NCBI RefSeq assembly: GCF_014644415.1
Contig: NZ_BMKQ01000001.1
Location: 248,001-312,000, forward strand
Direction: 5' to 3'
DNA: 64,000 nucleotides
From: Marmoricola endophyticus
GTDB taxonomy: Bacteria > Actinomycetota > Actinomycetes > Propionibacteriales > Nocardioidaceae
Shown here: piece after piece, positions 55,045 through 59,523 of the stretch
Layout of the letters: every line of letters starts with the position of its first letter
Position numbering within the stretch: position 1 is the first letter of the stretch
Notes under the pieces: generated by a model
What the model saw: the letters and a program-made list of their open reading frames with translations, nothing else
The model's database searches: none
Told to the model about the DNA's origin: nothing
Made by a program: the position numbers and the translations under genes

Positions 55045-55944
55045 TCAGGCCGGTGTCGCGCGCCCGACGAGGTGCGGCGCGCCGTCCTTGGGGCGGGTGA
55101 GGGAGAAGTCCACCCGGTCCTCTGCGACGAGGGAGCCGAAGGCGACCTTGCCGGGCAGCAGGATCGGCTTCTTGAACTCCACGTGCACGGTCACCGCGTC
55201 GGGCAGCCGGTTGTCGAGGAACGCGACGCAGCGAGCCTTGGACCACATGCCGTGCGCGATCTGCCGCGGGAACCCGAAGGCCTTCGCCGTCAGCGGGTAG
55301 AGGTGGATCGGGTTGGAGTCGCCGGACACGGCGGCGTACTGCCGGCCGAGGTCCGCGGGCAGCTTCCAGGTGGCCGGGCCCGCGGGGACGACGTCGATCC
55401 GCTCGCCGCCGGTCGTCGCCTCGGTGTCACCCCGTCCGGGGCGGAGGTACTCGGAGGTCGACTCCCAGAGTGTCTCCCCGCCGGAGGTGACCGTGCTGAG
55501 CAGGTCGAAGACCGTGCCCTTGGGGTGGGCGCGCTTGTTCGCTGCGCGGACGGTCACGTCGAGCCGCTCGTCGAAGCCGATCGGGCGGTGCGAGGTGATC
55601 GTGTTGGCCAGGTGCACCGTGCCTATCGCGGGGTAGGGGAACGACGAGTCCGTCATGATCCCCATCTGCAGCCCGAACGCGAGCATGTGCGGGTACGTCA
55701 GCGGCAGGTGCTGCCGGGGCTCGAAGCCGCAGACGGACGCGTACGCCGCCACCCGCGCGCGGTCGATCCCCACGTCGTGACGGGTCAGCGTCAGGTCCGG
55801 CAGCTCTCCACCGGACTTGCCGACGCCCGGGAGCAGGTTGACCCCGGGGAGGACCGGCAGCGCGGCCTTGGCGATGAAGCCGAGCCCGGTGCCGGTGCCC
55901 GCGTCGACCTCCCGCGTGAGTGCCCCGGACTTCTGGGAGGCCAC
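55045..55944 (-). CDS. htdX: MaoC-like 3-hydroxyacyl-thioester dehydratase
   Basis: This 299-residue protein is a double hot-dog MaoC-type dehydratase. The N-terminal half lacks the catalytic motif; the C-terminal half carries YAAVSGDSNPIHLYPLTAKAFGFPRQIAHGMW, the Asp/His hydratase motif. It matches HtdX (Rv0241c), which acts on (3R)-hydroxyacyl thioesters. The GTG lies one base after the fabG4 stop codon, so both are co-transcribed. With fabG4 and fadA2 it reproduces the Rv0241c-Rv0243 neighbourhood. Confidence 0.88.
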   Translation of the reverse strand: MASQKSGALTREVDAGTGTGLGFIAKAALPVLPGVNLLPGVGKSGGELPDLTLTRHDVGIDRARVAAYASVCGFEPRQHLPLTYPHMLAFGLQMGIMTDSSFPYPAIGTVHLANTITSHRPIGFDERLDVTVRAANKRAHPKGTVFDLLSTVTSGGETLWESTSEYLRPGRGDTEATTGGERIDVVPAGPATWKLPADLGRQYAAVSGDSNPIHLYPLTAKAFGFPRQIAHGMWSKARCVAFLDNRLPDAVTVHVEFKKPILLPGKVAFGSLVAEDRVDFSLTRPKDGAPHLVGRATPA

Positions 55945-55945
55945 C

Positions 55946-57280
55946 TCAGGCGCCCAGCATCATCTGGCCGCACACCCGCACGACGTTGCCGTTGACCGCG
56001 GTGGAACCGGGGGAGGCGTACCACGCGACAGCCTCGGCGACGTCCACCGGCTGACCGGCCTGGCTCATCGCGTTCATCCGCTGACCGACCTCGCGGCTGG
56101 CGAACGGCATCGCGTCGGTCATCTTGGTGGCGATGAAGCCGGGGGCGACGGCGTTGATCGTGATGCCCTTCTTGAGGCTCTTGGCCAGCGAGTCGATCAG
56201 GCCGATGACGCCGGCCTTGGACGCGGCGTAGTTGGTCTGACCGAGGTTGCCGGCGATCCCGGCCATGGAGGACACGCCGATCACGCGGCCGTTGTCCTTG
56301 ATCAGTCCCTGGTCGAGCAGCTCGCGGGTGATCTTGTCGGGCGCCTCGAGGTTGACCGCGATCACCGACTCCCAGCGGTCCTCACCCATGTTGGCGAGCT
56401 TCTTGTCACGGGTGATCCCGGCGTTGTGGACGATGACGTCGATGCCGCCGAAGGTGTCCTTGACGTGCTGCGCGATCCGCTTCGGCGCGTCGTCGTTGGT
56501 GATGTCCAGCGTCAGGCTCTCGCCGCCGATCGAGCTGGTCACCTCGAGCAGCTCACTGGCCGCCTGGGGTACGTCGATGCCCAGCACCGTCGCGCCGTCA
56601 CGGTGCAGCACGCGGGCGATCTGCTCACCGATGCCTCGCGAGGCACCCGTCACGACGGCGACCTTGCCGTCGAGCGGCTTGTCCTGGTCGGCGACCGGCT
56701 TGGCCTTGGTGGTCCCGGTCGCACCGATCCGGACGACCTGCCCCGAGACGTACGCCGACTTCGGGGAGAGGTAGAACGCCAGAGTCGAGTCCAGCGCCTG
56801 CTCGGCGCCGTCGGCGACGTAGACCAGCTGGACCGTGGCACCCTTGCCGATCTCCTTGCCGAGCGAGCGGGTGAACCCCTCGAGCGCTCGCTGCGCGATC
56901 CGCTCGTCGCCCTCGAGCAGCTCGGGCACGCCGCCGAGCACCACGACGCGCGCACACGGCTCGAGGCTGCGCAGCTTCGGGGTGAAGAACTGCTGCAGGG
57001 CGACCAGGTCGGCCGGGGTCCGGCACCCGGTGGCGTCGAAGACCAGCCCCTTGTACTTCTGACCCTCCACCGTCTCGGCGACGTTGGGGATCTCCAGCGA
57101 GTCGAGGGCGGTACGGACCGGATCCACCAGGCGTCCGGTGCCGCCGAGGACGACCGTTCCGTCGACGAGGGGTGCACCCTCGGTCCAGCGGTCCAGCTTG
57201 ACGGGGGCCGGGAGACCGAGGTTCTTGACCAGCAGCTTGCCGATCGGGGTGGCGGTGAAGGCCTGGTAAGCGTCGCTCAT
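55946..57280 (-). CDS. fabG4: 3-oxoacyl-ACP/CoA reductase FabG4-like
   Basis: This 444-residue high-molecular-weight SDR has an N-terminal flavodoxin-like domain without catalytic function and a C-terminal ketoreductase domain. There, VTGASRGIG binds NAD(H), and catalytic Ser/Tyr/Lys appear in GVSSMAGIAGNLGQTNYAASKAG. This is the layout of mycobacterial FabG4 (Rv0242c). ATG 57280 is 7 nt after TACGTT on this strand, within a GTTAC-N7-GTTAC repeat, so expression is likely under TetR control. A TTG at 57289 is less likely. Confidence 0.92.
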   Translation of the reverse strand: MSDAYQAFTATPIGKLLVKNLGLPAPVKLDRWTEGAPLVDGTVVLGGTGRLVDPVRTALDSLEIPNVAETVEGQKYKGLVFDATGCRTPADLVALQQFFTPKLRSLEPCARVVVLGGVPELLEGDERIAQRALEGFTRSLGKEIGKGATVQLVYVADGAEQALDSTLAFYLSPKSAYVSGQVVRIGATGTTKAKPVADQDKPLDGKVAVVTGASRGIGEQIARVLHRDGATVLGIDVPQAASELLEVTSSIGGESLTLDITNDDAPKRIAQHVKDTFGGIDVIVHNAGITRDKKLANMGEDRWESVIAVNLEAPDKITRELLDQGLIKDNGRVIGVSSMAGIAGNLGQTNYAASKAGVIGLIDSLAKSLKKGITINAVAPGFIATKMTDAMPFASREVGQRMNAMSQAGQPVDVAEAVAWYASPGSTAVNGNVVRVCGQMMLGA

Positions 57281-57287
57281 GCTCGTC

Positions 57288-57307
57288 AACGTAACGAGTG
57301 GTGTAAC
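57288..57307 (-). promoter_or_regulatory. Leaderless fabG4 promoter with GTTAC-N7-GTTAC operator
   Basis: On this strand GTTAC (57307-57303), 7 nt, then GTTAC (57295-57291) is followed immediately by GTT, giving the -10 hexamer TACGTT (57293-57288), then 7 nt and the fabG4 ATG. The same arrangement precedes the tetR gene at 58846. Confidence 0.65.
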
Positions 57308-57382
57308 TCAGTGTCCACATTTCGTGACCTGCCGCTCACCGTGTTGTCGTGGCCCGGTCGCGCCGGGAGGATGGGCCGTGAC

Positions 57383-57396
57383 TTACCTGCCGGTAA
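57383..57396. promoter_or_regulatory. Inverted repeat in the fadA2 promoter region
   Basis: TTACC-TGCC-GGTAA is a 5+5 bp inverted repeat with a 4-bp centre, 43 nt before the fadA2 ATG. It contains GTAAC on one arm, so it may be a second type of site for the same regulator. Evidence is by sequence only. Confidence 0.4.
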
Positions 57397-57438
57397 CCTC
57401 ACCGTGCAGAAGGCATCGACCGACGAGGAGCAACAGCC

Positions 57439-58719
57439 ATGGAGTCCAGCACGCGGAAGGTCGGTGTCCTCGGCGGCAACCGGATCCCCTTCGCCCGCTC
57501 CAACACCGTCTACGCGACGGCCAGCAACCAGGAGATGTTCACCGCGGCCCTCGACGGGCTCGTCGCGCGCTTCGGTCTCGAGGATGAGCGCCTCGGCGAG
57601 GTCGCGGCCGGTGCGGTCCTCAAGCACAGCCGCGACTTCAACCTGACCCGCGAGTCCGTCCTCGGCTCCCGCCTGGCTCCGACCACGCCCGCGGTCGACC
57701 TGCAGCAGGCCTGCGGCACCGGGCTGCAGGCGGCGATCTACATCGCCAACAAGATTGCTCTGGGCCAGATCGACTCCGGTGTTGCCGGCGGGATGGACAC
57801 CACCTCCGACGCCCCCATCGCCGTCGGCGAGGGTCTGCGGAAGAAGCTGCTGGCCGCCAACCGCGCCAAGACGACGCAGGGCAAGCTCGCCGCACTCGCG
57901 AAGATCCGCCCCGCCGACCTCGCGCCGTCGATCCCCCAGAACGGCGAGCCGCGCACCGGGCTGTCGATGGGTGAGCACCAGGCGCTGACCGCGCTGGAGT
58001 GGCAGATCACCCGCGAGGCCCAGGACGAGCTGGCCGTCGCCTCGCACCACCACCTCGCCGCGTCGTACGACGCCGGGTTCCAGGACGACCTGATCACGCC
58101 GTTCAACGGCCTCGAGCGGGACCAGAACCTGCGCGCCGACTCCTCGGTGGAGAAGCTGGCGAAGCTGAAGCCGGTCTTCGGCAAGGGTGCCGCGGCGACG
58201 ATGACCGCGGCGAACTCCACCCCGCTGACCGACGGCGCCTCCGCGGTCCTGCTCGGGACGCAGGAGTGGGCCGAGGCGCACGGGCTGGAGGTCAAGGCGT
58301 GGTTCGTCGACGCCGAGACCGCGGCGGTGGACTACGTGCACGGAGGCGAGGGTCTGCTGATGGCGCCGGCGTACGCCGTCCCGCGGCTGCTGGCCCGCAA
58401 CGGCCTGACGCTGCAGGACTTCGACTTCTACGAGATCCACGAGGCGTTCGCCTCGCAGGTGCTCTCCACGCTCAAGGCGTGGGAGGACCCGGTGTTCTGC
58501 ACCGAGCGCGCCGGCCTGGACGGGCCGCTCGGCTCGATCGACCGCAGCAAGCTCAACGTCAACGGCTCGTCGCTGGCGGCCGGGCACCCGTTCGCCGCGA
58601 CCGGCGGGCGGATCATCGCCAACCTGGCGAAGCTGCTGGAGCAGAAGGGCTCGGGCCGCGGCCTGATCTCGGTCTGCGCGGCCGGCGGCCAGGGCGTGAC
58701 CGCCATCCTCGAGCGCTGA
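57439..58719 (+). CDS. fadA2: Acetyl-CoA C-acyltransferase (thiolase) FadA2-like
   Basis: This 426-residue thiolase cleaves 3-ketoacyl-CoA or makes acetoacetyl-CoA. The nucleophile Cys92 is in LQQACGTGLQAA, the active-site His residues are in EIHEAFA and SLAAGHPFAATGGR, and the second Cys is in SVCAAGGQGV. ATG 57439 follows GAGGAG by 8 nt. It is divergent from fabG4-htdX, the arrangement of Rv0241c-Rv0243, and is followed by a tetR gene. Together with FabG4 and HtdX it can run the beta-oxidation cycle or its reverse. Confidence 0.93.
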   Translation: MESSTRKVGVLGGNRIPFARSNTVYATASNQEMFTAALDGLVARFGLEDERLGEVAAGAVLKHSRDFNLTRESVLGSRLAPTTPAVDLQQACGTGLQAAIYIANKIALGQIDSGVAGGMDTTSDAPIAVGEGLRKKLLAANRAKTTQGKLAALAKIRPADLAPSIPQNGEPRTGLSMGEHQALTALEWQITREAQDELAVASHHHLAASYDAGFQDDLITPFNGLERDQNLRADSSVEKLAKLKPVFGKGAAATMTAANSTPLTDGASAVLLGTQEWAEAHGLEVKAWFVDAETAAVDYVHGGEGLLMAPAYAVPRLLARNGLTLQDFDFYEIHEAFASQVLSTLKAWEDPVFCTERAGLDGPLGSIDRSKLNVNGSSLAAGHPFAATGGRIIANLAKLLEQKGSGRGLISVCAAGGQGVTAILER

Positions 58720-58749
58720 CTCGGCGCTCGTCGTGGGTCGACGGTCGCT

Positions 58750-58785
58750 GACCCGGCGCGTGCGGGCTCTCACACGCGCCGGGTC
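58750..58785 (+). terminator. Terminator downstream of fadA2
   Basis: A perfect 13-bp stem (58750-58762 with 58773-58785) closes a 10-nt loop, 31 bp after the fadA2 stop codon and upstream of the co-directional tetR promoter. It separates the two transcription units. Confidence 0.75.
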
Positions 58786-58818
58786 GGCGTGCGGTCGGTC
58801 ACGCTGGTGCAACAAGCA

Positions 58819-58838
58819 GTTACATCGGGCGTTACAGT
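58819..58838 (+). promoter_or_regulatory. Leaderless tetR promoter with GTTAC-N7-GTTAC operator
   Basis: GTTAC (58819-58823), 7 nt, GTTAC (58831-58835), and the -10 hexamer TACAGT (58833-58838), then 7 nt and ATG 58846. The repeat, its spacing and its register with the start codon match those at fabG4, which suggests autorepression by TetR. Confidence 0.65.
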
Positions 58839-58845
58839 TCGTCGC

Positions 58846-59523
58846 ATGGCCTCCAGCACGTCCGACACGCGGCGGACGGCGGCGCTGGCCCGCCGCCGCG
58901 CCAGGGAGCGCGAGATCCTCGACGCCACCCGTGCGCTGTTCGACGAGCGCGGGGTCCGTGACGCCCAGATCGAGGACATCGCACGGGCTGTGGGCGTCAA
59001 CCGGGCGATCATCTACCGGCACTTCTCCGGCAAGGAGGAGCTCTTCGCACTCACCCTCGTCGGCTACCTCGACGACCTCGCCGCCCGCCTCCGCGCCGTC
59101 TCGGTCGACATGTCGCCGGAGGCTCGCGTCGCGGAGATCACCGGCGCCTTCGTCGACTTCGGGCTGGAGCACCCGGCCTTCGTCGACTGCGCGCAGACGC
59201 TGATGCGCCGGCCCGGGCCGGAGCTGCTCGACGAGATCTCCGAGAGCGCGCTGTTCCGGCTCGGTCGCGGCATCGCCGGCTGCCTCGCCGTCCTGACCGA
59301 GGCGCTGAGGGCGGGCAACGAGGCGGAGGACTTCGCGGTCGAGGACGTCGACCTCCTGGCCAACACGTTGTACGCCTCCGGCCTCGGTGCCCTCCAGCTC
59401 GCCAGGGTGGGCATGAAGGTGAAGGAGGCCGCGCCGGGGATCCCGGCCGTCGAGCCGCTGAGCCCCGAGCAGATCAAGCAGCACCTCGTCTCCAGCGCCC
59501 TCACCTTCGCGCGGGGGCGCTGA
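58846..59523 (+). CDS. TetR-family transcriptional regulator
   Basis: This 225-residue repressor has a TetR helix-turn-helix at about residues 20-65 (ILDATRALFDERGVRDAQIEDIARAVGVNRAIIYRHFSGKEELFAL), and a helical ligand-binding domain. Its likely ligand is an acyl-CoA, given the neighbours. ATG 58846 is chosen because TACAGT is 7 nt upstream and there is no Shine-Dalgarno. The operator-like repeat upstream is shared with fabG4. Confidence 0.92.
   Translation: MASSTSDTRRTAALARRRAREREILDATRALFDERGVRDAQIEDIARAVGVNRAIIYRHFSGKEELFALTLVGYLDDLAARLRAVSVDMSPEARVAEITGAFVDFGLEHPAFVDCAQTLMRRPGPELLDEISESALFRLGRGIAGCLAVLTEALRAGNEAEDFAVEDVDLLANTLYASGLGALQLARVGMKVKEAAPGIPAVEPLSPEQIKQHLVSSALTFARGR

Follow-up and report, generated by a model that had tools for sequence, protein, structure and literature searches.

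A TetR-family regulator of Nocardioidaceae, its predicted palindromic operator at the tetR and fadE promoters, and predicted half-sites at fabG4-htdX

In a 64,000-nucleotide stretch of the Marmoricola endophyticus genome (the window), two promoters carry the same pair of short words, which raises the question of whether one TetR-family regulator controls both, and through what kind of operator. An htdX-like MaoC dehydratase gene (55045-55944, minus strand; MaoC_dehydratas 48.6 bits, cutoff 27) abuts fabG4, the gene of a 3-oxoacyl reductase and predicted target of the regulator (55946-57280, minus strand; NF006110, 639 bits, cutoff 410). Both run leftward; the thiolase gene fadA2 (57439-58719, plus strand; NF006740, 784 bits) diverges from fabG4 and is followed by tetR (58846-59523, plus strand), encoding a TetR/AcrR-family regulator of 225 aa (TetR_N 61.9 bits, cutoff 24). 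A sequence-only reading had proposed that fabG4 and tetR share one layout, GTTAC-N7-GTTAC with a TANNNT -10 box, 7 nt and ATG, and we could confirm both its sequence and its spacing. At fabG4, on the minus strand, the pair GTTACACCACTCGTTAC (57307-57291) leads into TACGTT (57293-57288), 7 nt and the ATG at 57280; at tetR, on the plus strand, GTTACATCGGGCGTTAC (58819-58835) leads into TACAGT (58833-58838), 7 nt and the ATG at 58846. At both promoters the TAC of the TANNNT box, which ends 7 nt before the ATG, comes from the second GTTAC.

The exact pair occurs only twice in the 3.66-Mb genome, at these two promoters, and its reversed control not at all. A bare count of this kind is nevertheless weak evidence: when one mismatch is tolerated, at least two matches appear in 5 of 100 dinucleotide shuffles of the window, and of the family's 149 genomes, 71 contain the exact pattern and 64 the reversed control (the control counted by hand). 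Genome-wide pair counts were therefore rejected as evidence, and the reality of the pair was decided by its conserved position at promoters. The 149 genomes sample a larger family, and loci were taken for part of the genomes holding each gene: fabG4 was scored in 100 loci for the GTTAC pair and in 99 for the comparison with tetR, of 132 genomes with a match; tetR was scored in 88 promoters and fadE in 61, of 122 genomes with the latter gene. Two tetR loci in which no start was found (L052, L100), rows with less than 80 bases of upstream DNA and one fabG4 locus whose match starts late (L097) were left out; 11 of 12 tetR-less genomes with fabG4 were counted, L117 of G025 giving no row. Shuffles for the pair, operator, box, fadE and fadA2-repeat counts keep single-base content only. 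Conservation of the pair in relatives had been named as the test of the shared operator, and the outcome was divided. Of 100 fabG4 promoters, 65 retain the pair with no more than one mismatch (0.3 in shuffles). Of the 88 tetR promoters, two carry it exactly, those of the window and of its nearest relative G028 (0.1 in shuffles), and the remaining 86 show two or more mismatches.

What the tetR promoters of relatives have in common is an inverted repeat, for example GTGCAACTCCGAGTTGCAC, lying upstream of the -10 box or abutting it, with the 19-bp consensus GTGYAACT-N3-AGTTRCAY. Its core, GTGYAAC-N5-GTTRCAY, is present within two mismatches in 59 of the 88 promoters (20 exact, 35 with one mismatch and 4 with two; single-base shuffles, 0.2), so that by sequence the regulator's own promoter carries the palindromic motif expected for the TetR/AcrR family. 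The predicted operator of the window, GTGCAACAAGCAGTTACAT (58807-58825, plus strand), is of the form GTGCAAC-N5-GTTACAT, matches the core with 0 mismatches and holds the first GTTAC in its right arm. It is the only place within the window with two or fewer mismatches, in a search that also yields two matches in 27 of 100 shuffles of the window. The 29 tetR promoters lacking the repeat belong to other genera (19; g5, g8, g10, g11, g14, g17, g19, g21 and g26), to a subclade with relocated tetR (8), to G098 and to G130, the last counted here because its start call missed a repeat that the exact-repeat search finds. The direct repeat was accordingly rejected as a general TetR operator: the element at tetR is an inverted repeat, the pair is exact in just two of the 88 promoters, and in those two, the window and G028, its second GTTAC is the -10 box.

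Leaderless initiation, which had been predicted for both genes, fits tetR better than fabG4. Of 72 tetR promoters, 64 have a TANNNT box that ends 5-7 nt short of the start, compared with 10 of 1,667 other ATGs scanned for a box at 5-9 nt. With the box so close to the start codon, most relatives probably transcribe tetR without a leader. The same is predicted for the window, in which the box overlaps the second GTTAC (58831-58835); -10 boxes reading GTTAC were seen in 3 of the 64. At fabG4 the arrangement is not general: the ATG follows the GTTAC pair after 9-10 nt in 8 of 57 promoters, window included, and after 34-97 nt in the other 49.

The inverted repeat also pointed to a third target. With at most one mismatch, GTGYAAC-N5-GTTRCAC is found at two places only in the window's own genome, tetR and the promoter of fadE, 140 kb from the tetR/fabG4 locus. 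This second site, GTGTAACTCCGAGTTACAT (G000:C1:447623), is followed after 7 nt by the ATG of an acyl-CoA dehydrogenase gene, and this gene by a second dehydrogenase-like one (26% identity). The right arm of the site itself contains the -10 box TACATT; fadE is a predicted leaderless promoter whose -10 box forms part of the predicted operator. Allowing two mismatches in this genome yields noise (10 more places; reversed control, 35 per strand). Among relatives, the repeat is present within two mismatches in 55 of 61 fadE promoters (shuffles, 0.1), with the ATG 7-8 nt after it in 43 of the 55. Its presence follows that of tetR: it was found in 55 of 58 genomes with tetR, 3 lacking it, and in none of 3 without (G074, G083, G092; Fisher 6e-4, a test that, like the one below, ignores kinship, many tetR-less genomes being small or fragmentary).

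Family-wide, the exact inverted repeat occurs in 48 of 149 genomes and its reversed control in 1. The 61 places, matched by hand to genes, comprise 39 at fadE, 13 at tetR and 9 elsewhere (one each in G133, G124, G096, G140 and G024, two each in G008 and G031), from which it follows that the regulon is wider or that some of these are chance. The extra repeat in G124 (L262) lies ahead of a gene resembling, by eye, a flavin monooxygenase.

At fabG4 the promoter as a whole is conserved. In a profile of 57 rows, the block reads TGAG-x-TCACGAAA-x-TGTGGAC-N5-GTTACAC-N5-GTTACATT, with 18 bp between TGGACN and TACATT. In the window, on the minus strand, this corresponds to a putative -35 box TGGACA (57312-57317; 18 bp from the -10, TGGAC kept in 56-57 of 57 rows), a first heptamer GTTACAC between the -35 and -10 boxes, which is a predicted TetR half-site (57301-57307), and a second heptamer GTTACGT with the -10 box TACGTT, assigned from sequence and profile (57288-57295). 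A generic sigma-70 scan found no promoter at the -35 region. The rows were picked by the GTTAC pattern and the conservation of its ten bases is thus circular; the bases that follow are A in 57 and C in 55 of 57 rows after the first GTTAC, and A in 48 and T in 49 after the second.

Scored as direct or inverted with up to two mismatches, the box formed by the two heptamers accompanies tetR: 78 of 88 tetR-positive loci have it and 1 of 11 tetR-negative ones (Fisher 1e-7), compared with 0.7 of 99 loci in shuffles. The single tetR-negative case is a two-mismatch pair in G027; 10 of the 88 tetR-positive loci lack a box. The two heptamers do not share the same fate. Two tetR-less genomes, G041 and G116, keep the flanking TGAG..TCAC and TGGAC, with a decayed box (GTGACCC-N5-GTTTCAT) in G041 and nothing resembling one in G116. 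G098 retains GTTACAC with TTATACT in place of the second GTTAC, and the tetR-less G001, G027 and G042 retain GTTACATT, which holds GTTACAT. From these patterns we take the first heptamer as a TetR element and the second as mainly a promoter element, the -10 box, which is our main reading though not a proven one. The second heptamer may be more than this: in four relatives (L065, L070, L071, L072) it reads GTTGCAT, in which the half-site is kept and TANNNT is broken, and these count against a -10 box and nothing else. Thus an operator common to tetR and fabG4-htdX, as first proposed, stands in so far as half-sites overlap both promoters and the box tracks tetR, and is not supported as a direct repeat in general.

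Could the fabG4 words be promoter elements, or sites of another regulator, unrelated to TetR? The second GTTAC overlaps the -10 box, and the whole promoter block, rather than the GTTAC words alone, is conserved. It includes TGAGCGGCAGGTCACGAAA (57320-57338, minus strand), between the divergent fabG4 and fadA2 promoters, whose TGAG and TCAC are kept in 53-55 of 57 rows and which suggests that another factor acts at fabG4. Yet the first heptamer tracks tetR while the flanking promoter elements persist in G041 and G116, and the palindromes at tetR and fadE are built from the same half-site, so that we regard an origin unrelated to TetR as very improbable. The 57320-57338 element is itself imperfectly inverted (GTGA-N8-TCAC like), with TGAGGGCCACGTCACGAAA as its commonest form, and is found in Nocardioides-like genomes.

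A closer competitor holds that at fabG4 the direct repeat GTTACAY-N5-GTTACAY is the operator, bound in a non-palindromic mode or by two dimers on half-sites 12 bp apart. It would account for the retention of the pair in 65 of 100 promoters, for the extra half-site bases in both heptamers (AC after the first, AT after the second) and for the GTTGCAT variants, which preserve the half-site and not TANNNT. It is less easily reconciled with the inverted repeats at tetR and fadE and at 12 tetR-positive fabG4 promoters, or with the persistence of the second copy without an orthologous TetR in G001, G027 and G042; furthermore, with two dimers 12 bp apart the middle half-site would have to be shared, which seems sterically unlikely. 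We consider a direct-repeat operator unlikely, even at fabG4, and an ordinary palindrome the most likely operator from the sequences compared.

The fabG4 promoters themselves offer some indication of how the two forms may be related. Among the 88 tetR-positive loci, 66 have the direct pair, 12 the inverted repeat and 10 neither. The inverted form includes G079 (GTGCAAC-N5-GTTGCAC, the right arm without TANNNT), G117 (GTGTAAA-N5-GTTACAT), G014 and G010 (both TGTAAC-N5-GTTACA), G122 and G124, while for most Nocardioides neither register offers a good left arm and the direct pair is very well kept. In a shallow clade of eight rows in the FadA2 tree the labels alternate, with G067, G082, G142 and G140 direct, G117, G122 and G124 inverted, and G120 neither, and the starred branches of the tree imply at least 9 changes of the direct and at least 6 of the inverted label. 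The labels are mismatch counts, and G122 and G124 (inverted 1, direct 2) and G140 (direct 2) differ by a base or two; several forks in this clade are not starred. On our reading the middle heptamer would serve as the right arm of a site over the -35 and spacer or, flipped, as the left arm of a site over the -10. A bolder reading, which we consider less probable than not, is that the fabG4 operator slides by one DNA turn (12 bp) among close relatives, a half-site being tolerated in either orientation, and that the middle half-site acts either as the right arm (GTTRCAC) of an upstream palindrome or as the left arm (GTGYMAC) of one on the -10 box. If so, the same promoter would stay under control while its operator slides. 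The direct and inverted forms provide a natural series for studying how the symmetry of a TetR dimer is relaxed or bypassed in evolution.

Taken together, the common motif, its placement in promoters and its correlation with tetR emerge directly from the sequence comparison, and a common TetR regulon is well supported and extended by it. In the reading we favour as probable, TetR is an autorepressor acting on the 19-bp inverted repeat GTGYAACT-N3-AGTTRCAY that also controls fabG4-htdX and the fadE operon at G000:C1:447623, the first GTTAC of each pair being a half-site and the second chiefly a -10 box. The dimer would cover the region from -35 to -10 of promoters that in this genome are predicted leaderless, and would block RNA polymerase until a ligand releases it. 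We infer binding, repression and ligand alike; gene neighbourhood and targets suggest that the last is most likely an acyl-CoA. For an environmental actinobacterial family, tetR, fabG4-htdX and fadE would thus form a testable regulon.

The regulator itself belongs to a clade that, judged by its matches, is centred on Nocardioidaceae. An orthologue is present in 121 of 149 family genomes by hand count, at E 9e-52 or better, the next match being 6e-14. Of 197 genomes drawn from across the class, 16 had a match at E 1e-20; 15 are of the window's family, its own genome included, and in the sixteenth, G177, fabG4, fadA2 and tetR adjoin in the common order. A plasmid search gave two weak TetR matches. 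The recognition-helix region is near-identical in 14 TetRs compared across genera. A structure model built from a 28-row alignment (pLDDT 92.6) shows the helical fold of the TetR/AcrR family and two short strands besides (190-204), and the sequence has the family's N-terminal TetR_N helix-turn-helix; Foldseek matched the model to PfmR at E 8e-7, among 457 hits at E 0.001. Across 80 named-record loci, tetR, fadA2 and fabG4 stand together with tetR convergent to fadA2 in 58, mostly Nocardioides and Marmoricola. The two genes run in the same direction in the window, G078 and G134, whereas they converge in G028 and most other loci, which suggests local inversions of tetR relative to fadA2.

Repressors of fatty-acid degradation of the TetR/AcrR family include Bacillus FadR, Thermus PfmR and Pseudomonas PsrA. 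With these the window's TetR shares its fold (PfmR 3vpr and FadR 3whb are among the Foldseek hits), a predicted palindromic operator in fatty-acid gene promoters and a presumed acyl-CoA ligand. It differs in its operator, GTGYAACT-N3-AGTTRCAY, in its few targets and in its predicted leaderless promoters, and its sequence is only marginally like those of FadR (22.4 bits, NCBIfam cutoff 200) and PsrA (30.5, cutoff 300). Like mycobacterial KstR, KstR2 and FasR, it would be an actinobacterial TetR regulator of lipid genes, and its DNA-binding part resembles that of KstR2 (4w1u, 42.5 bits), but it scores low against KstR (20.3 bits, cutoff 280) and FasR (43.8 bits, cutoff 330), and the operators of all three are not known to resemble the one predicted here. 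The best NCBIfam match is the SACE_7040 family regulator (NF050111; residues 20-114), at 52.7 bits against a cutoff of 250, a kinship confined to the helix-turn-helix part. No NCBIfam model reached its curated cutoff with this TetR, those for FasR, KstR, Bacillus FadR and SACE_7040 equivalogs included.

The records returned by our literature searches, mostly titles and the openings of abstracts, held no description of this regulator or its operator, nor of any regulator of these genes for Nocardioidaceae. In two studies, regulator motifs Lcin1, Lcin2 and Acin are predicted in Nocardioides simplex (PMC7593942, PMC7807495). These are, like the TetR operator, predicted regulator motifs of the same genus; Lcin1, the one compared by sequence, is steroid-linked and reads TCCCGGT[C/G]ACCGGGA, unlike the TetR operator (PMC7593942, PMC7807495).

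Upstream of fadA2, a related inverted repeat had also been reported. The repeat, TTACC-TGCC-GGTAA (57383-57396), is real, but its sequence differs from that of the TetR operator and we rejected it as a copy; a search with up to two mismatches gave no TetR inverted repeat belonging to fadA2 in the window. Within the fabG4-fadA2 intergenic region, only the window, G028 and G079 have TACC-N4-GGTA; TACC-N3-GGTA was seen at another 15 loci, which all belong to other genera, and the two forms together account for 18 of 97 regions (shuffles, 0.7). Because both recur in relatives, the repeat may belong to another regulator. It is possibly a relative of the palindrome ATACC-N3-GGTAT, which in other genera lies in the fabG4 leader (L087-L094, L096, L098-L100, L121, L122, L151), as AGATACCnnnGGTATnCGAGAGATAGGACACA in many. 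At fadE of three g19 genomes (G129, G069, G143; L329, L333, L338) the same palindrome immediately precedes the TetR repeat, and its occurrence at fabG4 and fadE perhaps points to a second shared regulator.

Two further features were seen at single loci. In L091 (g19), the FadA2 frame starts with a lysine/alanine-rich, histone-H1-like tail (MAESTPAKKAPAKKSPAKKAPAQKAA...) that is absent from FadA2 of the window, and in L101, from the tetR-less G092, the DNA some 100-150 nt ahead of fabG4 carries a short tandem repeat of the GGCTGTGACTT type.
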